DNA of 47,344 nucleotides, from the IMG/VR virus record IMGVR_UViG_3300026557_000021, positions 1-47,344 of that record, one strand, 5' to 3'. A program made the translations under genes and the position numbers. How positions within the stretch are numbered: position 1 is the stretch's first letter; each line of letters opens with the position of its first letter. The notes below the pieces were generated by a model that worked only from the letters and a program-made list of their open reading frames with translations, was not told the DNA's origin and made no database searches. The stretch is from a virus. Shown here one piece after another: positions 2,802 through 31,838 of the stretch.

Positions 2802-3085
2802 GAGACATGCTTGGGAATGAACTGAATCTTGGTGACTTGGTGCACGTCAAGTACGGAACCGAGTGGGTTGGCGGCGTGCTCGTCAAAGTGCAGAACGGTG
2901 GATTGTCGCTCGGGATTGCTAATCCCACGATGAAAAACGCTCCGGCGCAACTCAGCGCTGACGTGATCGTGTTGCAGGTTACGATTCCACTTGGCGGGAA
3001 TCCTGGCCAACCGCAGCCACTTCTCGTCCGATTGGACTCCAAGAGCATGACGGAAAAGATTGTTGAATCTGCTATCAAGATGTGA
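2798..3085 (+). CDS. Hypothetical beta-rich protein (95 aa)
   Basis: GTG start overlapping the preceding stop. The sequence suggests a small barrel of SH3-like type: GNELNLGDLVHVKYGTEWVG at residues 6-25, followed by repeated short strands. That is inference from pattern only. It sits immediately before the chimeric co-chaperonin and is separated from it by a strong ribosome site (GAGGAGG). Confidence 0.5.
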   Translation: MRDMLGNELNLGDLVHVKYGTEWVGGVLVKVQNGGLSLGIANPTMKNAPAQLSADVIVLQVTIPLGGNPGQPQPLLVRLDSKSMTEKIVESAIKM

Positions 3086-3094
3086 GGAGGCTTC

Positions 3095-3706
3095 GTGCCG
3101 GAAACTGAAACAAAAGTTCAAGTGATCGACCTTGTACGCCAAGAAGGAAATGTGTTCTGGGTGGGAGCCACCGGGTTCGCGGCCAGAGGAGAGCGAATTA
3201 TTATACGTGAGGACGAACACAAGTCCGGCTACGAGTGCTTGCGCTGCATGGACAAAGAGCACCGCACGTTGGAGGGGAAAGAAGTTTCAATCCTCACCTG
3301 CGATGCGTGCGCCGGCGAAGGGAAGCGACTAAAGGCCGGAAACGACGCGCTGACCGTGAAGTGCTCTGACTGCGAGGGGCGCGGATTTATTCCCTGTCCC
3401 GACTGCGATGGCAAGGGAACACCAAAAGGCGGCGTGATTATTCCCGACTCGCAGAAGAGTGAGCCAATGACCGGCGAAGTGGTAAGCGTAGGGCCGGAAG
3501 CAAAAGTGTACTCGCTTGGGGACCGCGTGATGTTCCCTTCCTACTCAGGCCATCGGTCAAAGGTTACAGCAAAAGAAAAAAATACTGATCGAGAAGAGGA
3601 AGTAGCCCTTCGTTTTATCCAAGAAGGCGACGTGATCGCGCAACTGTACGGAGAGTTGGAACTGCGCTCGTTCAAGGGAACGCAGGCGTTGTATACGAAT
3701 GAGTGA
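3095..3706 (+). CDS. Co-chaperonin GroES fold with inserted DnaJ-type zinc domain
   Basis: GTG start five bases after GAGGAGG. Residues 31-45 (RGERIIIREDEHKSG) match the first strand of GroES. Residues 111-188 match the remainder: GGVIIPD (the IVL-type mobile-loop tripeptide), PMTGEVVSVGP (the conserved GEVVAVG segment), LGDRVMF, then EEVALRFIQEGDVIAQL (the C-terminal strand). Between them lies a DnaJ-like cysteine-rich domain with four CxxC pairs (48/51, 69/72, 90/93, 101/104), three of them as CxxCxGxG. This is enough for two zinc sites. The two GroES parts sum to about 93 residues, close to a normal GroES (about 97). Located just before terL, it may help fold capsid proteins as T4 gp31 does. 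The joint architecture is unusual. Confidence 0.8.
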   Translation: MPETETKVQVIDLVRQEGNVFWVGATGFAARGERIIIREDEHKSGYECLRCMDKEHRTLEGKEVSILTCDACAGEGKRLKAGNDALTVKCSDCEGRGFIPCPDCDGKGTPKGGVIIPDSQKSEPMTGEVVSVGPEAKVYSLGDRVMFPSYSGHRSKVTAKEKNTDREEEVALRFIQEGDVIAQLYGELELRSFKGTQALYTNE

Positions 3707-3709
3707 GCG

Positions 3710-3907
3710 ATGGAACGGAAACTTAAAATCTATCGCCAGAGATTCATTGATGTTCCAAACGACGGAATACTCATCAACGTGTGGGTTGTTGAATTTCCGG
3801 TCCTAATGTTTATGACGTTCCCCACTTGGACCGATGCGGTAGACTACTGTCGAACTTACTGGGAAATGAGGCGCAAACTTGAAGTGGCGATTACTTCCAG
3901 TACCTGA
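3710..3907 (+). CDS. Hypothetical protein (65 aa)
   Basis: A short basic and aromatic protein. It lies between the co-chaperonin and terL and overlaps the terL start by 29 bases. No recognised motif. It occupies the position where many phages encode the small terminase, but it is too short and shows no helix-turn-helix, so I do not call it TerS. Confidence 0.5.
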   Translation: MERKLKIYRQRFIDVPNDGILINVWVVEFPVLMFMTFPTWTDAVDYCRTYWEMRRKLEVAITSST

Positions 3908-5576
3908 AGTTGGAGACGACTACGAAACACACTTCCGCAACACGCGTCTCAACAGTCTCGGATCACTCTACTGGTTTGCAAAATACTGCGTCGGATACTC
4001 TCGCCTGACCACTCTCCACAAACTCTTGTGTAAGAGCCTGGAGAAAGAACATCTCTTTCTTGTCATGGAAGTTCCGATGTCGCACTTCAAGACGCGGCTC
4101 GGTATCGCGCTGTCTATCTGGTGGGCACTTCCATTTTCCGAGTTCGATGAAAAGCACATGCGCGAGTTGGGTTACGGTGATGAGTGGATTCGCTACATGC
4201 GAAACGTCCACGACCAGAACCACCGCACGCTTATCACTCACGAAATCGCTGGACAGGCAACCAACATCGGGCGTGACGTTGACGACTGCTACCGGAACAA
4301 CGACGTGTTCCGAGCAACCTTCCGAGAAGTAATTCCCGATAAAGAGTGCACATGGAACAATGCGGAAAAGTTCCAGAAGCGAGTGAAGGGAGGAGACGCC
4401 TCCACGGGAACATTCGTGTACCGCGGAGTCGGTCAAGCGTTGCAGGGTATCCACGCAAACTCTATCATCCAAGACGACAACTTTGGAAAAGAGGCGCAGG
4501 ACTCGCTAATGAAAGGCGACGGGCGAGTAGCGGAAGATTTAATCAAGTGGCACAAACAAGTAGGCACGCGCTTCGATCCGAAGGTTAAGAAAGATCGCCG
4601 GCAGGTCGTGATTGGAAACAAGTGGGCCGCGCTGGACCTGAACGGATGGATCAAGAAAAACCAAAAAGAATTTAAGTTCGAGACGCATAGCGCAGAAGGT
4701 GGATGCTGCAAACTGCACCCGGCAGGGAAACCGATTCTAGCGTCCGAGTGGACGATGGAACTCTTGCAGAAAGAAAGCGACCGACTCGGCCATCTGGACT
4801 ACGCGCACTTCTACCTGAATATCGCTACGCTCCCAGAGGAGCAACTATTCGGCAAGGATTGGCTGCGAGTGTTCCGGCACAAGGAAGCGGACCCAAGATT
4901 CTCGAAAGACGATTTGCGAAACGCACTGATGATCGAGCACGCCGTCTACGAAGGGAACGCCCTGAAGGACATCATGGCCGGGATACTCGAAATTACGATC
5001 ATCGTGGACCCGATGCACGCTCGAAAGGTGAAGCGGGAGAAGCACGTCATCTGGAGCATCGGCTTTGACCCGGAGAGTTCGCGCATCTACCTACTCGGAT
5101 TGTGGCAGAAAGACTCCACCTACTCGACGCTCGTAGAGGAGATGTACAAACAATACGGAAACTGGACGATGCGAAATGGATTAAAGCAGGTAAAGACGCC
5201 GACCGTATACATGGGAAAGACCGCGCACGAATTGTTAAGGTTCTACTTAGCCGAGCGCGACAAGCGGGAAAAGATTCTTCACCTAGATCCCATCGAATTT
5301 GAGGACGACGACTCACTGGCGGCGATGAAGAACAGGATCGAATCACTGGAGCCAACTTTCAAGAGTCACCAGATTTGGTGTAATCCCGAGCAGGGGCAGC
5401 AAGCAGAATTTGTGGAGGACTACGAGAACTATCCAGCGGGGAAACTGGATGCGCTAGACGTTCTGGGACGCTACTCCGGGATCGTAGAGATTGCGGACAA
5501 CAAACAGGCGAGAGAATTTCTGCGCCAACAGATGGCAGACTTCCAGAGCAGGCAATCAGGGATTGCGGGGTACTGA
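3879..5576 (+). CDS. terL: Terminase large subunit
   Basis: DNA packaging motor with ATPase and nuclease domains, acting at the prohead portal. A degenerate Walker A-like segment is at residues 63-74 (MEVPMSHFKTRL). Walker B is ANSIIQDD at 193-200. The start of the RNase H-like nuclease is ITIIVDPMH near 372-380, with FDPESSRIYLLGLW after it, and a late acidic cluster AGKLDALDVLGRY completes the nuclease site. At 565 aa it has a typical length. Start TTG 3879 follows GAGG and lies within the upstream gene. The usual GxGKT/S of the P-loop is replaced by SHFKT, as in some divergent terminases. No small subunit was identified. Confidence 0.85.
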   Translation: MKWRLLPVPEVGDDYETHFRNTRLNSLGSLYWFAKYCVGYSRLTTLHKLLCKSLEKEHLFLVMEVPMSHFKTRLGIALSIWWALPFSEFDEKHMRELGYGDEWIRYMRNVHDQNHRTLITHEIAGQATNIGRDVDDCYRNNDVFRATFREVIPDKECTWNNAEKFQKRVKGGDASTGTFVYRGVGQALQGIHANSIIQDDNFGKEAQDSLMKGDGRVAEDLIKWHKQVGTRFDPKVKKDRRQVVIGNKWAALDLNGWIKKNQKEFKFETHSAEGGCCKLHPAGKPILASEWTMELLQKESDRLGHLDYAHFYLNIATLPEEQLFGKDWLRVFRHKEADPRFSKDDLRNALMIEHAVYEGNALKDIMAGILEITIIVDPMHARKVKREKHVIWSIGFDPESSRIYLLGLWQKDSTYSTLVEEMYKQYGNWTMRNGLKQVKTPTVYMGKTAHELLRFYLAERDKREKILHLDPIEFEDDDSLAAMKNRIESLEPTFKSHQIWCNPEQGQQAEFVEDYENYPAGKLDALDVLGRYSGIVEIADNKQAREFLRQQMADFQSRQSGIAGY

Positions 5577-5805: not shown

Positions 5806-7779
5806 ATGGCCGCACCCGCAGTAACCACCAGCATCGAGGATGTTAAGCCGGATTCTTTCGAGCCATGCACTATCGAGTTCGGCGCCGATGTTGAAAAAGA
5901 AATAAACCGATTTCTCGAACGCCACATCAACTCCCGCATCGCCCAACTCCGCAACATCCACACCTCCAACCTGCCAAAGTGGAAGCGCATCGCTGAGGGC
6001 AGGCCGCTCCAGAAAAGCCGCTCGTTCCCGTTCGAGGGAGCTTCTAATCTAGTTCATCAAACTGCCGGCGAAGCGATTGACGACCTTGCGGCCCGCGTGT
6101 TGCAGCTTACGTGGATGACTTCGCCCATCGTCCTTTACCGCTACTTCACGGGAAAGGTTAAGCAGGAGCAGGCGCAGATATTTTCGGAACGCGCAAAGAC
6201 GCTGATGCAGTTCATGGACTACGCGGCGTATGACCCGCGAGAACTGAATCTCTATCCACGAGAAAACAAGTGGTGGTACGACGGTGCGGTGTGCGGGCGG
6301 TCATGGCTGATCGTGGCGCCAGAGAGCAGAATCGAAGCGGTCTACACCGGGTACAACAACAAGAAGAAAGCGACGTTTGAAAACAAAACACTCTACGAAG
6401 GGCCGAAGGTAATCAACGCGGACTACGAAGATATTCTGTACGACCCGAACGTGAAGGTATTCGAGGAGACAGATCCGCTACCGCGCCGCTGCACGCTGAC
6501 CGTGCGGAAGATTCGAGAGCGCGTATTCAACGGTACCTATCGCAAGGAGGATGCGGAAGAAGTGCTGAAGCATCCCGACCGCTACGGACCCACCGACGTA
6601 AAAAAGCGCGAGAACCAAAAGAAGGGAGTTGTGGACACCACCGATGACACGATGGCAGAGTGGGATATTTACGAAACCTACTTCTCGTGGTGGCACAACA
6701 AAAAGAAGCATCGCCTCATCGCGTGGTACCATCTGGCGACCAAGAAAATTCTGAACTGCGTTTACAACTTCATTCCCGACAACCAGATTCCGATTGTGGA
6801 AACACGGTTGACGGTGGAGGGCCGCGGCTTCCCCGATATTCTGGAGCACTACCAGGAAGAAATATCCACGGCGAAAAACCAGCGCAACGACACGATCACG
6901 GTGTCCATGTGGGGAATCAATACTGTGGACCCGCAGAACAAAAATCTAGGTCCCAACTTCCGCCTCGCGCCAAACGTATTCCTGCCCGTGAAGAAAGATC
7001 AGTTCATGCACTACGACGTTGGCAACGCCGCCTTCGCTGGCCTCTCGCTGCAAAACGAACAGGCGATGATTATGCAGTCGAAGGAACGCGCTGGCGTGGG
7101 ACCGGCAATCTCGGGAGCGGGCGCGGGTGGAACGAACAAGAAGGGCGCGTACTCAGCGATGGGCACGCTGTCCGTGGTGCAGGATGGAAACTCCCGCAAC
7201 GATCACCGCACATCCGATTTCCGCCACTCGCACGTTGCTCTGATGTCGCTGCTCACGGACTTCTACGGATTCCTGGGACTGGGCAGGAAGGGGAATTCTT
7301 TCGGATTAGACGACGATGTTTTGGAAAAAGCGTTGGACGATTACGTGACCCGCAAGATGCGGATTCCCACACGCGCAGCCTCGGCAAGCCTAAACCGGGA
7401 AATCAGCAAGCAAAACCAAATCATTTTGAAGCAGGCGCACTCCGCTTATGTCAAGGAAATCAGTTCGCAGTTACAGGCGGTGATGAACGAAACACTCCCG
7501 ATGGATTACCGGAAGTGGCTGCTAGGTGTTGTCAAGTCGAGCACAATGCTGATGCAGCAAATCTTCAAAGACTTTCAGGTGTCCGACAACCCGATGGAGT
7601 ACGTTCCCGATATTGAAATCAAATTAGCGGAACCGGAAGGAAAGCAAAATGCCGCGGCGCAAGGACAACAACCCCAACCAATCTCTGCGATGGCCAGTGC
7701 TCTTCAAAGACCCGGAGAAGGCGGAATCCCTGTTCTCGGCGGAGGGATGGACGGAACTGCTGGCGGACCTGCGCGCTAG
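5806..7779 (+). CDS. Portal protein
   Basis: Dodecameric head-vertex channel, inferred from size (657 aa), position directly after terL and before scaffold and capsid genes, and composition. There is a helical, charged N-terminus with KSRSFPFEGASNLVHQTAGEA, a stem/wing region with many aromatic residues, FPDILEHYQEEISTAKNQRND (a typical portal helix), and a helical C-terminus. The start ATG 5806 has no clear Shine-Dalgarno. TAGTAT lies six bases upstream, which could be a -10 for a leaderless transcript, but no good -35 is seen. Its last 131 bases overlap the next gene. Confidence 0.8.
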   Translation: MAAPAVTTSIEDVKPDSFEPCTIEFGADVEKEINRFLERHINSRIAQLRNIHTSNLPKWKRIAEGRPLQKSRSFPFEGASNLVHQTAGEAIDDLAARVLQLTWMTSPIVLYRYFTGKVKQEQAQIFSERAKTLMQFMDYAAYDPRELNLYPRENKWWYDGAVCGRSWLIVAPESRIEAVYTGYNNKKKATFENKTLYEGPKVINADYEDILYDPNVKVFEETDPLPRRCTLTVRKIRERVFNGTYRKEDAEEVLKHPDRYGPTDVKKRENQKKGVVDTTDDTMAEWDIYETYFSWWHNKKKHRLIAWYHLATKKILNCVYNFIPDNQIPIVETRLTVEGRGFPDILEHYQEEISTAKNQRNDTITVSMWGINTVDPQNKNLGPNFRLAPNVFLPVKKDQFMHYDVGNAAFAGLSLQNEQAMIMQSKERAGVGPAISGAGAGGTNKKGAYSAMGTLSVVQDGNSRNDHRTSDFRHSHVALMSLLTDFYGFLGLGRKGNSFGLDDDVLEKALDDYVTRKMRIPTRAASASLNREISKQNQIILKQAHSAYVKEISSQLQAVMNETLPMDYRKWLLGVVKSSTMLMQQIFKDFQVSDNPMEYVPDIEIKLAEPEGKQNAAAQGQQPQPISAMASALQRPGEGGIPVLGGGMDGTAGGPAR

Positions 7780-10082: not shown

Positions 10083-11045
10083 ATGCCTGGAAATATTTTG
10101 CTGAGAAACAATTTCCCGCCGCTTCTTGCGGCAGGGCTTCGATACATTTTCTGGCAAGCTACCGACCTCAAGGAGCATACTCCGCAGTTCACGCACTACA
10201 TCAACGAGATGACATCGGAAGATGCCTACGAGATCGACTACGAACTCTCGGGCACCGGGCCAATGCCGATGATGCAGGAAGGCTCCGCGCCGGCTGCTGA
10301 CGGTATCATTCAGGGCGGCACCCGGAAGTACGTGCACATCCAGTACGGACTTTTGACGGAAGCCACACGGCAACTGGTTGCGGATGACAAGTACGGCATC
10401 ATCAACAACGTGCCAAAGTCTCATGCACGCTCCGCTCTTTACGCAGAGGAGGCGGTTTGCGCGTCACTGTTCAACTTAGGCGGAACCTCCATTACCACCA
10501 CGAACGGAGTTTCGCTGTTCAACACCGCACAGCCTTTGATGGGAGGGTCGCAGGCAACCGCCCTGGCGCCGAACATTTCCACGATCATCAACTCAGCGGG
10601 AACCTATCCAAATCGGCCAACACCCGATTCCGACTTGACCAACACCGCATTGCAGCAAGCAACTACGATGCTAGCGTTGCAGCCGGATGATCGCGGTATT
10701 CCGATTCACGTCAAGCCAAAGTACCTTGTACACGCTGAGCAGAACCGCCGCAACGTGCGCGAGCTTTTGGGATCTGGTGGCGTACCGGGTTCGAGCAACA
10801 ATGAATTGAACTGGATTCAGGGCGAGCACTTCGTCGGCCTTGAATTGAACTATCTGACCACGCCGTTTGGGTGGGGCCTGCTGGCCGAAAAAGAAGGGCA
10901 CCAGTTGAAGAAGTATAACCGCGAACCGTTGATGGCCGCGACGGACGACGATTTCAAAACGGAAGTTTTGCTGTTCAAGTCCACGATGCGCTTCAGTGTC
11001 GGTGCAACGACGTGGCGTGGTACATTTTGGTCTTACGGAACGTAA
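10083..11045 (+). CDS. Major capsid protein
   Basis: A 320-aa protein with GGAGG seven bases before ATG 10083. It has features of the Mu gpT / HK97-fold capsid group: an N-terminal arm, a long helix region (THYINEMTSEDAYEIDYEL), a central YLVHAEQNRRNVRELL segment similar to the capsid spine region, and a beta-rich C-terminus ending RFSVGATTWRGTFWSYGT. Placement after scaffold and decoration proteins fits. Lengths near 300 aa are usual for this family. Confidence 0.75.
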   Translation: MPGNILLRNNFPPLLAAGLRYIFWQATDLKEHTPQFTHYINEMTSEDAYEIDYELSGTGPMPMMQEGSAPAADGIIQGGTRKYVHIQYGLLTEATRQLVADDKYGIINNVPKSHARSALYAEEAVCASLFNLGGTSITTTNGVSLFNTAQPLMGGSQATALAPNISTIINSAGTYPNRPTPDSDLTNTALQQATTMLALQPDDRGIPIHVKPKYLVHAEQNRRNVRELLGSGGVPGSSNNELNWIQGEHFVGLELNYLTTPFGWGLLAEKEGHQLKKYNREPLMAATDDDFKTEVLLFKSTMRFSVGATTWRGTFWSYGT

Positions 11046-23357: not shown

Positions 23358-26300
23358 ATGTGGCGCTTACCATCCCTCGTCTTACTAACCCTCCTGCTTT
23401 GCGCTTCCGCCTTCGGGCAGTCAACGACCGTGAGCGGTTCGATCCAAGATTCTCCAGATGGGCAGTTGTGGTTCGGAGGCACCTACAGTTTCGTTTTCCG
23501 CGTTAGCCCCACAAGCCCCACGGGAGCATACTTCTGGCAAGGCGCGCCATTCTCCACCCAGCAAACGATTGCAGGGGCGCTGGACGGCTCCGGCCACTAC
23601 TCCGTAAGTATTCCCTCGAATACCGCGATCACGCCGGCAGGAAGCACCTGGGACTTGACGCTGTGCCCGCTGGCGACATCGCCGTGCTTCACGGTTCAAA
23701 AGATTACGATCACGGGAGGGACGCAGACAGTTGCTCCGGCGCCGCCGAGCGTGAGAATCAACATGGGAAGTCCTGCCCCCAATACTCGCGCTTACAGAGA
23801 TGGCGAGTTGGTCGCAGGATCGCTGGGGCAAACATATTTCAATGTCACGGACGGACTGGTGCACGTCTGCAATTTAGTTCCCTGCACGGTATGGAATCCC
23901 ATCGGAGGTGTCATCAACGTGGCCGTGGCTCCGACTGGAGCGTGTACGCCTGGCTCGATCCCGGAACAAGTTATCAGCACGGGTGTCATCTATACGTGCC
24001 AAGCGTCCGTATGGGCACCGATCGCTTCAAGTGCTTCTGCGGCCGGATCGCCAGGCCAATATCAATTAAACAGTGGAGGAGTACTCGGAATAGGTGGACT
24101 CTCCGAATCTGGGGGATCGGTCACGAATGCCTTGGACTTAACCAGCCGCGGCCCAAATCCTGGTGGTGTGGACGTGCGATTCTTTGGAGCGGTAGCGTTG
24201 AATCCCAATTCAGTGCCCGCTCCCACAGGCACCATCACGTCAGGCACAAACTCGCTGGTAGTGTCTGCTGTATCGGGCGTATGGGCTAAAGGGATGGGTA
24301 TTGCGGTTGCTGGAGCTGGAACGACGCATTCAATGGTCACGCCTGCTGCGCCAACGGTGACACCATCGTGCAGCACTTCCGAGACGCACATGGACTACAC
24401 CACCCCGGCTGGGGCTGGGTCCACGGCTTACCAATATCAGCTCGCTCTGTGGAATCCGTCTGGAGGGTATACCGCTGCGTCCACCACTGGCACCACATCC
24501 ACGGGGAACGCTTCGCTTGGCGAGAATACTCTGACCATCACGAGTATCTCTACTGGAACTGGACAGCAGAAAACTGCCCTCGTTTCCGGATCTACCGCTA
24601 ACTTGGCGGTAGGTTGCGTTGTGCACATCGCGGGCACGTCAGACGACGGCGAATACGGCGGAACGCAAATTGTCGATGGCCTACCCGATGGGACGCACTT
24701 CACCTACACGAACGGCACAGACGTAGCGCATGGTATCTCGACCACGACCGCAACGGGCGGAACGGGATTCTACTGGCTCTGCAACCACATCACAGTTCCA
24801 GCTCCAAACGCTGACGGGCATCAGTACATGGTTTTCGGGCGCACTTCCGGCTCGAATGTGTTTCTTGATTTCACAAAAGTAATCAACCTCGGCTACACCG
24901 ACGCCACCTATCTAAGTTGGGATGACTACGGCCCAACCATGATGGCCTCGCCACCGACTTCGTGGTTTGTTCCAACTTCGCCTCCGGTCTCAGCGGTGCA
25001 GAATACGCTTTTGGCATTCGTTGGAAATATCGCTGGAACCACATTCACGCTCGTAGACAAGACAGGTGCGGCGGTGAATGCTTCCAACTCTGTCACCTCC
25101 ACGCCGACGCGGTTCGACAACATGCCTGCCATCATCGCAGCGGAAGCGGCCACGGGATTTGTCACCAACGGTGGCGGCGGAACGATTCGCTTCCCGGCAT
25201 TCGAGAACGCATCCGGGAATTTCTGCTTTGTGACCAGCACCTATTTCTTGGTGACTGTGAAAGCGGTCATTCAGGACGGCCCAGTGTGTAATGCGGCCAC
25301 GATTCAACTCGCTCCTTCGGGCGTATGGCGTGGAACACTTTTCGATGCTCCACGATTGTCACTTCCACAATTCGCGTCTCAGCCCCTCATCCCGATTATC
25401 AGTCAGGGGGCTAACCCGGTAATCCTGCTCAAAGGCGGCGGCTCGCTCAGCAACCTCACTGTCACGCTTAGCGGCAACGGCGGCATCGGCGTGTTCAAGG
25501 TTGCCGACGCTGGCTCATTCTATTACGAGAACCTCAACCTCGCCTCCACGGGCGCTGGCGATTACATGAGTATCCCCTGGTATGACTATCAAGATAAAAC
25601 CAGCGGGTCATTCGGCGGCGTGATGGACAAAATCACCTGCACCACTGGCCCCAATCAGACGACAGGCGTAACGCTCACGCCTTGTATGGCGTTCAAGTAC
25701 AATAATCAATATATTCTATCGAACATCGCGCAGAATCGCAGAGGGATTTTCATCGTTCCTTTCAACGGAGCAGGCTACGACATTTCCATGAATGCCGACT
25801 CGCAAGGAATGATTACTCCGCTAGTTGCGGTTTCGCAGGAAATCAGCGGCAATGTTCCGGGACACCTGAAGCTCCACAATCTCAATCCCGATACGACCGC
25901 ATTTCCGGTATTGGCCAATCTGTCTCCGGCATCTGGCTCGATTGGTTTCTCCGTGCTGATTGATGGATGGAACAACCCATCTTCCAACGGCCCGGTTGTC
26001 AGCGGCAAGCCATTCACCTCCGGCCTCACGATGCAGCGCGGAGTGCTCCAAAGCGTAAACGAAAAGAACATCGGACAAAACGTAGGCGTGAACTGGGAAG
26101 GCGGCAACAGCGGCAACAACCCCGGCTACAACATCACAGCCTTGCGCCAGATGGTTGTCCACTACTCCGGCAATCACACGACGCTGGCCAACGAAGCGGC
26201 AGTAGTGTCAGATGCGACGGGCACCATCACGATTGACTGCACGATCAACGGAGCGGTCTGGGACGTTTACTCGCAGGCAGGAACGACAACGGTTGCGCCC

Positions 26301-28280
26301 AGCGCGGGATGCACGCTGTACGCGAAAGGAGCCACAGGAAGTTTCATATTGTCGAACAGTCAGGGCATTCGCATTCAGGTAGACAATCAGGGCGGCGCGG
26401 CTAGAGCGCAGGGTGGTGGCAGCACTGGTGGGTCATCTGCTGGAAGCGTCCATGCACTGCAAGGCGGCGATGGCGGCGGTGGATTTGAAGGCACAAACAC
26501 ACCTACGGGGCCGGGGATATTTAGTCCTGTCTACGACGAACCGACTTCTGCTGGTGTCGCGGCTGCCATCCGACTCCCCGGCGTTCTCATCAACCCGCAG
26601 ACCGGAACAACCTACATTATCGGCTCAGCAAATTATTGGTGTGACCGTGGCACAGTCATCACAGCCAGCAATGCCGGTGCTCAGACCTACACGTTAGTAA
26701 ATCCATCCACTACGTGCTTTGGATTCAACCACTTCTTCATAATCAAGAATATCGGCCCAGGCACGGTCACGGCAGTGTCTAGCGGATTCAAAATTAATGG
26801 AGCCGACCCTGCCTCCTTGCTAATTGCTCCGAGTTGGACTGCATTTTTCTGGTCTAATGGCGTGGATTACTTCGCCTCTAGGCTTCCTGACTTTGGAGCC
26901 TTCCCGAATTGCGTCGGCGGCGGCAACGCGCTCCAGTTCACGACAGCCACGGGGATATTCAGTTGCGGCTCGTCATCGGCGGGAGTGTCCAGCATCACGG
27001 GAGATGGAATCATAATTAGCAATTCAGGCTCAACAGGTGCGGTCACTCTTACGCAGGCCAGCATCGCCGCCCACAAGTTCATAATGAACAACACGGCTGG
27101 CTCGGCAGCTCCCGGCGCACAGACCCCCGGCAAGGCGGACTTGCTTGGCACTCTCGTCTACAACGACCAAATTAATACGTATGGTGCATTCAATCAGAAC
27201 TTCTCGGCGGCAACGTGGGAAATCCCTGCTGCGGGCGGATTCGCTGTAAGCGCATCTTCCAACTTTGGCCTAGACACCACAGCCAAGACAATCAAATGTT
27301 ATGTCAACAACGCGGATTCTACCTGCATGGCGACAACGGCCACGGATACTACGACAACCCACGCAGCCTTTGCATCGGCAACACCCGGCCTATATACGAC
27401 TCGCGCTATCGTCCTAGGTGACCTTCCCACCCCATCTTTCCCTCTCACAGTAGCGGGCACAGTAACATCAGGTGGAATCCCCTGCTTCACATCCACCACG
27501 CAAGAGAGTTCGTCTGCCTTGATGACCGTGAACGTCTACATGAAGGGTGGAGGAGCGGGAGTCTGTCCGTCGCCCGGACTGACGACGGATGATGGCACAA
27601 CCTCCACTTACACAGGAACGGGAGGAACAAAGTCGCCTGCATTCACCTCGACAGGAACCACCGCTGGCTTCGTGGATTATCCGCAAGGGACAACCAGTGC
27701 CGCAGTTGCGCCGTGCAACGTAGCGAATTCCATCTGCGAACAAGCTCCCGCTTCCGTGACAGCGTACGTGCTCAATAAACCGGGAGCGGCTCCGGTCAAT
27801 AACAATTCCGCTGCTCTCTGCTCAAACGCCTCTCCTTCGGTTTGCGCGTTTACGAAGATGTCGCAGACGGCCTTCCTGACGAGCAACTATACGAACGCTA
27901 CGACTACGTTTTCCAATGTCACTGGTATATCGTTCTCGGTGGAAGCCAGCACCAATTACAAAGTTACCTGCGACCTCGACTACCAGACCTCTGCGACAAC
28001 GGCGGACATCAAAATCCAGTGGACTGGCCCTGCTTCGCCCACGGCGGTAACTTACGATTTGGCAACTGAAGTCACGGCATCCACATTGAGCGCGTCGGTG
28101 GCGACGGCCTTCTCTACGGCGCTATCTGAAGCGGGCACGCCAACGATAACTACCAACTTCCCGCTACGGACTACTCTAACCCTCATCAACGGAGCGAACG
28201 CAGGAACTATTCAGCTTCAAGCAGCGGCAACAGGGACGGGGACAATCACGGTTGTTCCGGGGAGTTGTTCCGCACAATGA
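23358..28280 (+). CDS. Giant exported fibre/spike-like protein (1640 aa)
   Basis: N-terminal signal peptide: MWRL, a run of Leu/Val and a cleavage-like CASAFGQ (residues 15-21). Next, about residues 22-130, comes a beta domain of the carboxypeptidase-like Ig type common in acidobacterial secreted proteins. Near residue 270, VDVRFFGA resembles the start of a pectate-lyase-like beta-helix. Later regions are Thr/Ser/Gly/Ala-rich, low in charge, as in receptor-binding spikes. No catalytic site is recognised. It starts a coupled group of four genes with signal peptides or anchors and lies after its own strong promoter, without a Shine-Dalgarno. A signal peptide on a tail-fibre-like protein is unusual. 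Confidence 0.65.
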   Translation: MWRLPSLVLLTLLLCASAFGQSTTVSGSIQDSPDGQLWFGGTYSFVFRVSPTSPTGAYFWQGAPFSTQQTIAGALDGSGHYSVSIPSNTAITPAGSTWDLTLCPLATSPCFTVQKITITGGTQTVAPAPPSVRINMGSPAPNTRAYRDGELVAGSLGQTYFNVTDGLVHVCNLVPCTVWNPIGGVINVAVAPTGACTPGSIPEQVISTGVIYTCQASVWAPIASSASAAGSPGQYQLNSGGVLGIGGLSESGGSVTNALDLTSRGPNPGGVDVRFFGAVALNPNSVPAPTGTITSGTNSLVVSAVSGVWAKGMGIAVAGAGTTHSMVTPAAPTVTPSCSTSETHMDYTTPAGAGSTAYQYQLALWNPSGGYTAASTTGTTSTGNASLGENTLTITSISTGTGQQKTALVSGSTANLAVGCVVHIAGTSDDGEYGGTQIVDGLPDGTHFTYTNGTDVAHGISTTTATGGTGFYWLCNHITVPAPNADGHQYMVFGRTSGSNVFLDFTKVINLGYTDATYLSWDDYGPTMMASPPTSWFVPTSPPVSAVQNTLLAFVGNIAGTTFTLVDKTGAAVNASNSVTSTPTRFDNMPAIIAAEAATGFVTNGGGGTIRFPAFENASGNFCFVTSTYFLVTVKAVIQDGPVCNAATIQLAPSGVWRGTLFDAPRLSLPQFASQPLIPIISQGANPVILLKGGGSLSNLTVTLSGNGGIGVFKVADAGSFYYENLNLASTGAGDYMSIPWYDYQDKTSGSFGGVMDKITCTTGPNQTTGVTLTPCMAFKYNNQYILSNIAQNRRGIFIVPFNGAGYDISMNADSQGMITPLVAVSQEISGNVPGHLKLHNLNPDTTAFPVLANLSPASGSIGFSVLIDGWNNPSSNGPVVSGKPFTSGLTMQRGVLQSVNEKNIGQNVGVNWEGGNSGNNPGYNITALRQMVVHYSGNHTTLANEAAVVSDATGTITIDCTINGAVWDVYSQAGTTTVAPSAGCTLYAKGATGSFILSNSQGIRIQVDNQGGAARAQGGGSTGGSSAGSVHALQGGDGGGGFEGTNTPTGPGIFSPVYDEPTSAGVAAAIRLPGVLINPQTGTTYIIGSANYWCDRGTVITASNAGAQTYTLVNPSTTCFGFNHFFIIKNIGPGTVTAVSSGFKINGADPASLLIAPSWTAFFWSNGVDYFASRLPDFGAFPNCVGGGNALQFTTATGIFSCGSSSAGVSSITGDGIIISNSGSTGAVTLTQASIAAHKFIMNNTAGSAAPGAQTPGKADLLGTLVYNDQINTYGAFNQNFSAATWEIPAAGGFAVSASSNFGLDTTAKTIKCYVNNADSTCMATTATDTTTTHAAFASATPGLYTTRAIVLGDLPTPSFPLTVAGTVTSGGIPCFTSTTQESSSALMTVNVYMKGGGAGVCPSPGLTTDDGTTSTYTGTGGTKSPAFTSTGTTAGFVDYPQGTTSAAVAPCNVANSICEQAPASVTAYVLNKPGAAPVNNNSAALCSNASPSVCAFTKMSQTAFLTSNYTNATTTFSNVTGISFSVEASTNYKVTCDLDYQTSATTADIKIQWTGPASPTAVTYDLATEVTASTLSASVATAFSTALSEAGTPTITTNFPLRTTLTLINGANAGTIQLQAAATGTGTITVVPGSCSAQ

Positions 28281-29044
28281 TTCTCAGATTCATACTTGCG
28301 TACGCGCTTGCGATTCTTCCCTTTCAAGGTGTGGGTGGGAAGGCTGGAATAGGCGGGACGGCTGGGACGGGCGGCGGCGCGTCCGCTGGCACCACATGGT
28401 CTATCCCTCACTCAGCGCTGGTTTCCAATGCTCAACCACAAGGGGTCGCCAGGTCGCTCACATATACAACCACAGCAGCGGCGACAACGATTGAAGTAGC
28501 TGTCATATGCGAAGCGGGAGGGACTGGTGCATCAAACAATGTTTCTTCGATAACAGACAACGCTACGGGCGGCTCAAGCACATGGCAAACTGCCGGTGCG
28601 GGCGCACGAGGAAGCGACGTTACGACAGCCGTCGTTTGCGAGACTTGGTATTCCTATATCAAGAGCGGCGCGACGACGATTACCGTCAATACGGCAGGCG
28701 GGAACGTTTACGTTTACGTTTACGAAGTGAATGGGATTAAAACGTCAGCCCCAGTAGACGTAGTGGGCAACGTGACGACGGGCGTAGGCAGCGGATTCAA
28801 TAACGTTGGAGCTAGCCTTACCACCACGGTCAGCGGAGATTTCATTGTCGGAGCAGATGCCCCTAACGCAGGGACCATCACGGCTTGCAGCTCGGGTTAC
28901 ACAGCGGACAACACGGCATCTGGAATTGGCTTCTGCCACTTCACGAGCACGGCCGCGTCCGCAGGAGCGCATCAGGTTACGTACACGAACAGTTCAAGTG
29001 GAGACAATTATCTAACAACCGATGCGACTTTCAAACACAATTAG
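28277..29044 (+). CDS. Exported fibre-like protein (255 aa)
   Basis: ATG at 28277 overlaps the previous stop (ATGA). A hydrophobic signal segment ILRFILAYALAILPF is followed by Gly-rich linker and small-residue beta-rich sequence (T, S, A, G and V), with few charges. The hexamer CGTTTA occurs three times in a row at 28705-28722, encoding VYVYVY, and is in frame. Unknown function; the position in the spike block suggests a virion or secreted receptor component. Confidence 0.55.
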   Translation: MILRFILAYALAILPFQGVGGKAGIGGTAGTGGGASAGTTWSIPHSALVSNAQPQGVARSLTYTTTAAATTIEVAVICEAGGTGASNNVSSITDNATGGSSTWQTAGAGARGSDVTTAVVCETWYSYIKSGATTITVNTAGGNVYVYVYEVNGIKTSAPVDVVGNVTTGVGSGFNNVGASLTTTVSGDFIVGADAPNAGTITACSSGYTADNTASGIGFCHFTSTAASAGAHQVTYTNSSSGDNYLTTDATFKHN

Positions 29045-31838
29045 ACTACTCGTGCTGCTTGCTTGCGCTCGCGGCATCTCCGCGCAGACCTACACCACCA
29101 CCTTCCCGCTCACCGAGAATCCCATCTCTGAGAGTGGCAAGTGGATTAACGGTGGCGTGACGGGCCTCGACTGGGGGAATGTCCGTACGACGACGAATCT
29201 GGCCTTTGGCGCGTCAACGAGCGTTGGCTGCCCTGGAACAGTAGCTCTGTGCAATGACCCCAGCGCGGTTCTGTCCGGGACTTGGCCATCAGCACAGGCT
29301 GCACAGGCAACTGTTTTCGTAGACGCCACGCTCGGCACAAACTGCTGCCACGAGGTAGAACTACGGCTGAACGTGACAATTACGGCCCATAGCATCACAG
29401 GCTACGAGATAAATTGCAGCACCTCACAGAATAACTATTTTCAGCTTGTCCGCTGGAACGGTCCGCTGGGTAGCTTCACCCAACTTGCTTCCGTTAGTCC
29501 GGGCTGCGCCCAAGGCGATGTCATCACAGCAACTCACTCAGCTACGGGCGTGATAACCGCCTACAAAAATGGGGTCCAGCAATTTCAAATTACAGATACC
29601 ACTTACATGGGCGGCTCTCCAGGAATGGGGTTCTTTGATAATCTCGCAGATGGCAAGCTAGCTTTATCCGGTTTCACCAAATACTCGGCCTACGTGCCGA
29701 ACGCCTGCCCTTCGGCAGCGAACTACACGAGTCCCACGAATCCTACCGGCTCTCTGGTGACGCTAGCTAGCTTGGGTATCACCAAATGCTCGTTCATCGC
29801 TGCGAATGGATCGAACTCAAACGATGGGGCAAGTGAAGTTACCCCGTGGCTATTCTCGCCGGGGATGAACGCTTGCTCAGTGGATTGCACAAACTCGGCT
29901 ATTACAGCGGGAGCGGGCTTCATCTTCCGTGGCGGCGACACGTGGCACTTCGGCAATTCAGGAGCCTCTCCCTACGCTGGAGTCGTCACGGCCTGCGCGA
30001 CCAATGGAACGGTTGCAGGCGGCTTGTGCATGGCAGGGAGTTCGAGAAAAGGCACATCGGCGAATCCGATATACATCGGCGTAGACAAGTCATGGTTCAC
30101 TGGCGGTTCTTGGGCGCGGCCCATCCTGACCGCCGACAACCCGGCTTGCAATGCTTTACTCGTCAACGGCACGACCTGCCTGACCTCTGGAATCACCGGC
30201 CTCAGCGGAGCAATACAGTATTACGTCAACGCCTGCACCTACCAGGTCGGAACCGCGAACATCCTCACCAATTTCAACGATGCTGGATTCCAGATATTCG
30301 ACAACTTGGAGCTGTCCGGGCTGTGCGCTCAGGCCGTGGGGCAACCGAACGGAGCCAATACCTTCGTGCGGTATTCAACCCTTGCCGGACCAAACTCGTT
30401 TCTGAATCTCTACATCCACAACGCCACGCATCTTCAGTTCGCCGGGTTCAATGGTGGCCCGAACTGCACCGTGTCAACGGTGTGCTTCAACCTTTTTGCG
30501 TTTCAAGGCCGCGCCGCCACGGCAAATCCGGGAGAGAATATCCTCCTCAACGCGGTCGACTTCTCAGATTCCGATGGTTCTGGGGCAGGTCTGCTGTCCA
30601 GCGGCGGGTATAACGTAGCCTACAATTACATTGGGAGCACATCTCAGGCGCTTCCCAACACCGCTCACCTGTTCCACGACAACCTCTATGAGAACTTCTT
30701 CGAGAATGGCCACTCGAACATGATTGAGTCCGCCGAAGTGGCGGGGACAAATGCGATTTACAACAACGTGTTCAGGCACGTCGATACCACGGGCGCAACC
30801 GGCTCCGTCATGCTCTGGCCCGGCCCCGTGGCCAACACCGACACCGATTATATTTTCAACAATCTCGGCTACGACGTGGCGAGCGTCCAGTATCTGAACA
30901 ACGGCGGCGTGGGAATCACCACCAACAACGGGAACTACAAGTATTTCAATAACACCTGGCAGTCAAATGTGAACCAGCCGATTTTACGCATCAACGGCAC
31001 ACCGCTCGGCACTGTGACGGATACAAACAACCACTACATCACGGACGGCTCACCCTATAATCTCGGTTCGCCGGGTAGTTGGACGGCGGCTAAACCGCTC
31101 TTGATGACCAATTCCGTGGCAACCGCGACGGGATACACAAGCTCACAGACGTTTGCCTTCGCTCCTACGTCGGGAGGTTCTCCTACGGTCGGCGTTGGCA
31201 ATAACGTGACCTCCACGTTGTGCGCTGCCCTTACGACAGCAGCCGGAAGCGATGCCACGCTTGCAGATGCAGCGGCAGCTTGCGGCAAAGACACCCGCTA
31301 CGCCTGCACCTACAACTCAACCACCCATACAAACACATGCCCCGCAAGAACTACCGTGGCGCGGCCGGTCAGCACGCCGTGGGACATCGGCGCCTACGAG
31401 TCTCCGGTCGTTAATGGGCCGATAGCTACGTTCTGCTCTCCCACGGTGAGTCTCGGGCTGGCCCCGTTTGGCCTAGCAGGGAATCCGGTAGCGTGCTCGC
31501 TCACAAACACAGGCGCTTCCAACCTCGTTAACACGCAAATAGCCCTGTCATCGAACTCGTTTTTCGTTTCCAGCAATACCTGCGGCTCACCTGCCACGAT
31601 TACGACCGTTATTCCCGGCACGGGCTTTACGCTCACCCCCGGTCAGTCCTGCACGTTCAACGTGGTGTTCCAGCCGCAAGCCGTTGGTTTCCAGTCAGGA
31701 GTTTTGGGATTCACAGAGAACACGATAGGGCTGGTGGATTTCTTGGCGCTCAATGGCACAGGAACAGGCACCCCGGCTCCTTGCGCCAACTGTTTTGCGG
31801 GCACGATGACTTCACAAGGAACGGTGAAATTGAAATGA
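29022..31838 (+). CDS. Exported beta-helix protein with choice-of-anchor-like end (938 aa)
   Basis: Signal peptide with IRLLVLLACARGISAQ, cleavage near residue 22. The first region (residues ~30-225) is LamG-like (NVTITAHSITGYEIN, then FQLVRWNGPLGSFTQLASV). Then comes a long parallel beta-helix-type stretch (about 250-760) with NxFxN-like turns (NNVFRHVD, YKYFNNTWQSNV). The last ~115 residues (SPTVSLGLAPFGLAGNP, FNVVFQPQAVG) match the choice-of-anchor-D / ASPM-SPD2-Hydin type repeat often seen in Acidobacteriota exported proteins. Together this is a plausible host-surface or polysaccharide-binding spike. The start overlaps the upstream gene by 23 bases. Confidence 0.6.
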   Translation: MRLSNTIRLLVLLACARGISAQTYTTTFPLTENPISESGKWINGGVTGLDWGNVRTTTNLAFGASTSVGCPGTVALCNDPSAVLSGTWPSAQAAQATVFVDATLGTNCCHEVELRLNVTITAHSITGYEINCSTSQNNYFQLVRWNGPLGSFTQLASVSPGCAQGDVITATHSATGVITAYKNGVQQFQITDTTYMGGSPGMGFFDNLADGKLALSGFTKYSAYVPNACPSAANYTSPTNPTGSLVTLASLGITKCSFIAANGSNSNDGASEVTPWLFSPGMNACSVDCTNSAITAGAGFIFRGGDTWHFGNSGASPYAGVVTACATNGTVAGGLCMAGSSRKGTSANPIYIGVDKSWFTGGSWARPILTADNPACNALLVNGTTCLTSGITGLSGAIQYYVNACTYQVGTANILTNFNDAGFQIFDNLELSGLCAQAVGQPNGANTFVRYSTLAGPNSFLNLYIHNATHLQFAGFNGGPNCTVSTVCFNLFAFQGRAATANPGENILLNAVDFSDSDGSGAGLLSSGGYNVAYNYIGSTSQALPNTAHLFHDNLYENFFENGHSNMIESAEVAGTNAIYNNVFRHVDTTGATGSVMLWPGPVANTDTDYIFNNLGYDVASVQYLNNGGVGITTNNGNYKYFNNTWQSNVNQPILRINGTPLGTVTDTNNHYITDGSPYNLGSPGSWTAAKPLLMTNSVATATGYTSSQTFAFAPTSGGSPTVGVGNNVTSTLCAALTTAAGSDATLADAAAACGKDTRYACTYNSTTHTNTCPARTTVARPVSTPWDIGAYESPVVNGPIATFCSPTVSLGLAPFGLAGNPVACSLTNTGASNLVNTQIALSSNSFFVSSNTCGSPATITTVIPGTGFTLTPGQSCTFNVVFQPQAVGFQSGVLGFTENTIGLVDFLALNGTGTGTPAPCANCFAGTMTSQGTVKLK

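Follow-up and report, generated by a model that had tools for sequence, protein, structure and literature searches.

What does a phage do with a chaperonin lid that carries a zinc domain inside the very loop by which GroES grips GroEL? The question is raised by a gene in the linear virus record IMGVR_UViG_3300026557_000021, whose 47,344 bp were analysed at full length and are called the window here (Table 1). Judged by its sequence, the product is a GroES/Cpn10 homologue with a DnaJ-type cysteine-rich (CR) domain set between GroES strand 1 and the mobile-loop segment GGVIIP, and it is referred to below as CR-GroES. Its closest homologues are 79–82% (L001/L005) and 67% (L003) identical. An earlier note, made from the letters of the DNA, had seen GroES similarity in residues 31–45 and 111–188 and had proposed profile searches with both parent families. 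That for GroES succeeded, with Pfam Cpn10 (PF00166) matching residues 110–162 at 40.7 bits (cut-off 21.1), whereas DnaJ_CXXCXGXG (PF00684) matched residues 62–108 at 21.1 bits, under its cut-off of 32.7, though a profile of the whole family does find the DnaJ domain (see below). Searches of PHROGs and NCBIfam were consistent with the Pfam result.

Table 1. Features of the CR-GroES gene and of the neighbouring head genes in the window
Feature	Position	Strand	Details and basis
Shine-Dalgarno-like AGGAGG	3085..3090	+	4 nt 5′ of the GTG start; from sequence
CR-GroES gene	3095..3706	+	203 aa plus stop; GTG start; open, uninterrupted reading frame
GroES strand-1 region	3185..3235	+	residues 31–47 (RGERIIIREDEHKSGYE); hhalign to E. 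coli GroES 1–16; AF2 strand 34–39
Inserted DnaJ-type cysteine-rich (CR), predicted two-zinc domain	3236..3418	+	residues 48–108; DnaJ alignment, 1exk profile match, conserved cysteines, AF2 pLDDT 88–97 (residues 51–110)
GroES beta-barrel body	3425..3658	+	residues 111–188, without roof hairpin; Cpn10 E 2.4e-10; profile vs GroES probability 98.5%
Remaining GroES mobile loop, predicted GroEL-contact tripeptide	3428..3445	+	residues 112–117 (GGVIIP); aligned to GroES GGIVL
C-terminal tail	3659..3703	+	residues 189–203; low confidence in AF2 model
Terminase large subunit (TerL)	3879..5576	+	phrog_38 E 1.5e-24
Portal-like protein (SU10 portal)	5806..7779	+	PF23899 E 2.9e-5, below Pfam cut-off; phrog_332 E 2.6e-5
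Major capsid protein, ~319 aa (~35 kDa)	10083..11042	+	PF25209 E 3.9e-11; phrog_371 E 8e-9

The family was collected from IMG/VR by scanning with three degenerate DNA patterns and by an HMM search over all open reading frames, which yielded about 50 distinct full-length CR-GroES proteins on different contigs, and 43 representatives below 88% identity were aligned. Cpn10 was matched independently by 42 of the 43 (E ≤ 1e-3), and all eight cysteines are likewise kept in 42. Residues D40, C48, C51, C90, C93, G127, S131 and G133 are found in every member, and C69, C72, C101, C104 and G106 in all except one; two of the three patterns themselves require C101/C104, and C48/C51, D40 and Y46, so the invariance of those residues is partly built in. 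No pattern requires C69/C72/C90/C93, which are kept in 42–43 of the 43. The third pattern uses residues of the GroES body only and is a fair test of the presence of the insert, which was found in 28 of its 30 matches (27 with four CxxC motifs, and L035 with two); the remaining two were a plain GroES (L066) and a protein cut by its contig end (L075). A subgroup (L012, L014, L017, L019, L020, L023–L026, L029, L030 and L032) bears an extra N-terminal region of ~100–150 aa with the motif ‘LGN.A.EQG....GADF.GIN.S’, N-terminal to the GroES strand.

The GroES parts on the two sides of the insert were compared with a four-member GroES alignment using hhalign. The C-terminal part of the family profile scored 90.7, with a gap of nine residues at the GroES roof. 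The N-terminal stretch is too short for Pfam and is supported by profile comparison: its family columns alone match E. coli GroES 1–16 in register, with a score of 23.1 (highest of 200 column shuffles, 15.0). When the insert columns were omitted, the score rose to 103.6 and the alignment covered the whole of GroES, beginning at residue 1, which puts the insertion point directly before G-G-I-V-L in the E. coli mobile loop. Against the PDB the best match of the family profile was chloroplast Cpn20 (E 1.9e-19), followed by bacterial GroES, with Cpn23 also among the best; nearly all co-chaperonin matches begin at profile column 94–95, and the Cpn20 stretch ‘KPVGDRVLVKVDKEE’, which lies opposite columns 26–40, immediately N-terminal to the insert, is not significant as a piece alone. 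The IVL-type tripeptide by which GroES contacts GroEL is kept as VII after GG, as had been noted before; position 114 is hydrophobic in all 43 aligned members, and at least two of the three positions are hydrophobic in 41. In L057 and L067 the tripeptide is eroded to ISH and LAH, respectively, and GroEL binding may be changed or lost in these two. Strand 1, the GG-hydrophobic tripeptide, the beta-barrel body, the FAG/YAG motif and the C-terminal strand are common to CR-GroES and GroES/Cpn10 (including Cpn20), from which CR-GroES differs by its cysteine-rich mobile-loop insert of 29–74 residues, the missing roof hairpin and extra N- and C-terminal extensions. An ordinary GroES has a short, unbroken mobile loop (~16 residues); in the window protein the insert amounts to ~60 residues, for which reason the protein is regarded as a variant GroES and not as an ordinary member.

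The insert carries four CxxC motifs (C48/C51, C69/C72, C90/C93 and C101/C104), of which the last three have the form CxxCxGxG and the first, in the window protein, lacks GxG; the motifs and their location at the mobile loop, both pointed out in the earlier note, were confirmed. Taken by itself, the insert can be aligned, motif for motif, with residues 144–204 of E. coli DnaJ (PF00684; structure 1exk), sharing with this domain the four CxxC, the CxxCxGxG pattern, their order and the hairpin spacing, whereas the spacing between motifs 3 and 4 is 11 instead of 14. PF00684 was matched at E ≤ 1e-3 by only 14 of the 43 members, and columns 44–95 of the family profile match 1exk (E 4.5e-6). The insert is probably a two-zinc domain. 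Its ends are tightly fixed in the family alignment, the spacing from D40 to C48 being constant, and in many members the last CxxCxGxG continues directly into GG[IVL]3P, so that the final glycines are common to both motifs. Member L035 (L035:872-1324), with two CxxC only and a shorter insert, is a natural half-size zinc domain. The term ‘Hsp40-like’, used for the protein earlier, proved too strong: the CR module is all that it has in common with DnaJ, since both the J-domain and the C-terminal substrate domain are absent, and a search for the J-domain (PF00226) gave no match in the protein or anywhere on its contig.

An AF2 model of the single chain became usable with the 43-row alignment (pLDDT 86.7, pTM 0.71), as compared with a pLDDT of 32 when only four close homologues were supplied. 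It has a strand at residues 34–39, two hairpins in the insert (56–68 and 77–89) and the GroES strands thereafter; the segment GGVIIPDSQK is a weak spot within the fold (pLDDT ~61), as would be expected of a mobile loop. A predicted fold unlike GroES, or a lack of profile similarity to GroES in residues 111–188, had been named beforehand as an outcome that would speak against the assignment, and neither was seen; the top three matches of Foldseek in the PDB were all co-chaperonins, namely GroES (8wuw), M. tuberculosis Cpn10 and T4 gp31 (1g31), and the top fold matches in BFVD were viral Cpn10/GroES (best E 6e-6). The PDB matches reached E-values of only 2e-3 to 7e-3 and low TM-scores by target (0.47–0.59), because the insert and the loop inflate the comparison. 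The model thus appears to give moderate support for the GroES fold, and the sequence evidence is the stronger.

Comparison of the window gene with its four closest relatives gave a dN/dS of ~0.1 for the zinc part and ~0.1–0.2 for the GroES body, where dS was unsaturated, which indicates that CR-GroES is under purifying selection. In a tree of the GroES body a single branch (support 99/95) sets apart the 43 insert-bearing proteins, among which L035 is nested; as the tree holds only five plain rows and long branches meet at the key branch, the reading that the insert was gained once, and that two motifs were later lost in L035, is suggestive. An informative insert-free comparison is provided by a related phage, L066 (contig region L086), where a 92-aa plain GroES is encoded upstream of homologues of TerL and of the portal protein, two open reading frames lying between; its TerL is 21–23% identical to those of CR-GroES phages. 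In comparison with this plain GroES, the split N-terminus was placed by profile alignment, whereas a pairwise global alignment did not place it.

In the window, the CR-GroES gene is followed by one short open reading frame, then by TerL and the portal gene, with the capsid gene further on; the major capsid protein would be a candidate folding client. TerL homologues lie no more than six genes from CR-GroES in 29 of the 38 loci, portal homologues in 24; the gene is usually placed with head genes. The earlier description of the protein as a phage co-chaperonin holds at the level of homology. In a minority (L042, L074, L079) the gene is preceded instead by a conserved pair of genes with no assigned function; the six-gene neighbourhood yielded no terminase in these three, nor in L039 and L051. 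The placement of gp31 in T4 differs from the usual position of CR-GroES upstream of the terminase. Exactly one Cpn10 match was present in 15 of 16 relatives’ records of ~40–100 kb, and the sixteenth record (that of L057) holds a CR-GroES member that the Cpn10 profile misses. GroEL was not found in the window or in 35 other phage records (36 in total, which may be incomplete), and the partner must therefore be the host GroEL, if it is GroEL at all.

Several known proteins bear on what such a lid might do. The T4 co-chaperonin gp31 caps the host GroEL for the folding of gp23, and its lengthened 22-residue mobile loop and missing roof loops enlarge the folding cage by 8% (PMC6318259). Like gp31 and other phage GroES proteins, CR-GroES is phage-encoded, has a long mobile loop and lacks the roof loops, with no phage GroEL in the records tested; it differs in that the loop of gp31 holds no domain (PMC6318259), and no close sequence kinship between the two was detected. 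In DnaJ, substrate binding involves the CR, whose zinc centres contribute to contacts with substrate and DnaK (PMC4428491). The chloroplast zinc chaperones ZnJ2 and BSD2 show that a DnaJ-type CR can occur with no J-domain attached; ZnJ2 holds unfolded proteins and BSD2 acts on Rubisco, a chaperonin client (PMC5818400). These are separate proteins, whereas the CR of CR-GroES sits inside the lid. A metal-binding addition to GroES is also found in Helicobacter pylori HspA (PMC5116745, PMC8779794). CR-GroES and HspA are alike in being a GroES with such an added segment. That of HspA is histidine-rich, binds nickel and lies at the C-terminus, unlike the mobile-loop CR of the phage protein.

Following the precedents of gp31, the DnaJ CR and ZnJ2 (PMC6318259, PMC4428491, PMC5818400), the favoured reading, to which we give somewhat better than an even chance, is that of a lid with a client-holding domain: a GroES homologue with a built-in CR that most likely caps the host GroEL and holds or passes on phage head proteins. 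With the CR domain lodged in the N-terminal arm of its mobile loop, CR-GroES would form a GroES-like ring that caps the host GroEL through the retained GG[IVL][IVL][IVL]P segment, and up to seven zinc domains would then be displayed at the rim between GroEL and lid. Their most likely use there would be to keep or orient non-native proteins of the head (capsid, portal, terminase) where the folding chamber opens or, alternatively, to pass them in from DnaK. The role would resemble that of gp31 for gp23, plus a holding module of the ZnJ2/BSD2 kind, and the job is probably that of helping to fold phage head proteins. A further proposal, held tentatively and at rather less than even chances, is that the zinc module at the GroEL grip selects clients and so biases the host chamber toward phage head proteins. 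Several observations temper the favoured reading, among them the modest Foldseek E-values, the PF00684 match under its cut-off, the eroded tripeptides of L057 and L067 and the loci with no terminase found within six genes. In addition, the capsid protein of the window has only ~319 aa, which makes no obvious case for special folding help, and two family phages encode a separate small protein with a C-terminal J-domain that has HPD (PF00226 over the cut-off; L087:1245-1874 (−), G034, in the L079 phage, and L088:1033-1521 (+), G032, in the L074 phage), so holding or hand-off may occur elsewhere in those phages, possibly through recruitment of DnaK.

The main rival, which we consider unlikely, holds that the zinc domain serves the mobile loop only as a rigid spacer or stabiliser, lengthening it, raising the dome or setting the affinity, and touches no client. 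The enlarged cage of gp31 (PMC6318259) offers it a precedent, and the tightly fixed ends of an insert placed within the loop, with CxGxGG running into GGxxxP in many of the proteins, would suit it, as would the wide range of insert lengths and the nested L035 with its two CxxC. Mere spacing has no need, however, of a near-invariant CxxCxGxG surface, and a ~35 kDa capsid protein fits the ordinary cage. More doubtful still is the idea that the GroES-fold ring has become independent of GroEL and serves as a direct head-assembly chaperone (scaffold or portal/terminase), with the zinc domain as a protein–protein contact. The synteny with the head module, a weak match to phrog_931 (‘head morphogenesis’), the size of the insert in the GroEL-contact loop and the eroded tripeptides of L057 and L067 all point that way, but the GG-hydrophobic-P segment kept in most members would make little sense without GroEL, and in the related phage it is a plain GroES gene that precedes the terminase. 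We think it very improbable that the lid is switched by redox or zinc, i.e., that zinc release or disulfides at the CxxC motifs toggle GroEL binding, or that it acts as a thiol reductase on clients: the DnaJ CR does have weak thiol-reductase activity, but its CxxCxGxG-type centres bind zinc tightly (PMC4428491), all members keep centres of this type, and CR-GroES has no other redox signature. Chance or mis-assembly, whether as a GroES fragment beside an unrelated zinc ribbon or as a ‘GroES-like’ domain of the alcohol-dehydrogenase type suggested by a weak ADH_N match (E 0.008), is excluded for practical purposes by ~50 distinct relatives with the same architecture on different contigs and a dN/dS of ~0.1. 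The alcohol-dehydrogenase domain was rejected in its own right, Cpn10 being far stronger than ADH_N and a Rossmann domain being absent.

GroES and the DnaJ CR are each well known; their combination, and the position of the one within the mobile loop of the other, were not found described in the open-access papers searched, in agreement with the earlier note, which was not aware of such a system. Among 50,697 named phage records, tblastn found no full-length relative, only GroES matches or zinc matches, each on its own. With the window protein as query, partial matches turned up in 1,204 plasmid records, mostly annotated as GroES among the matches listed, and a GKGG-type query gave none. None of 84,980 species genomes matched a DNA pattern; since this pattern requires three residues to separate GxG from G and fits only the subgroups that have them, other subgroups may yet occur in prophages. 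A search with the alignment of close homologues brought up nothing further among viral contigs, and genome contigs yielded no relative. The family has thus been seen so far in metagenomes only, i.e., in uncultured phages, for a group of which it adds a likely head-folding factor. A folded domain kept inside the GroEL-gripping loop across diverse phages changes the view of what is tolerable there, and CR-GroES is a natural tool for asking if the choice of clients can lie with a chaperonin lid.

Other genes of the window also deserve mention. The frames at 23358-28277 and 29022-31835 encode proteins of 1640 and 938 aa with signal-peptide-like starts, which is unusual for phage tail-region genes; similar proteins occur in L051, L039 and L074. 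Several relatives have a long protein with a signal-peptide-like start encoded close to CR-GroES. An ASCH-domain protein (PF04266 over the cut-off) is encoded at 907-1380 on the minus strand.
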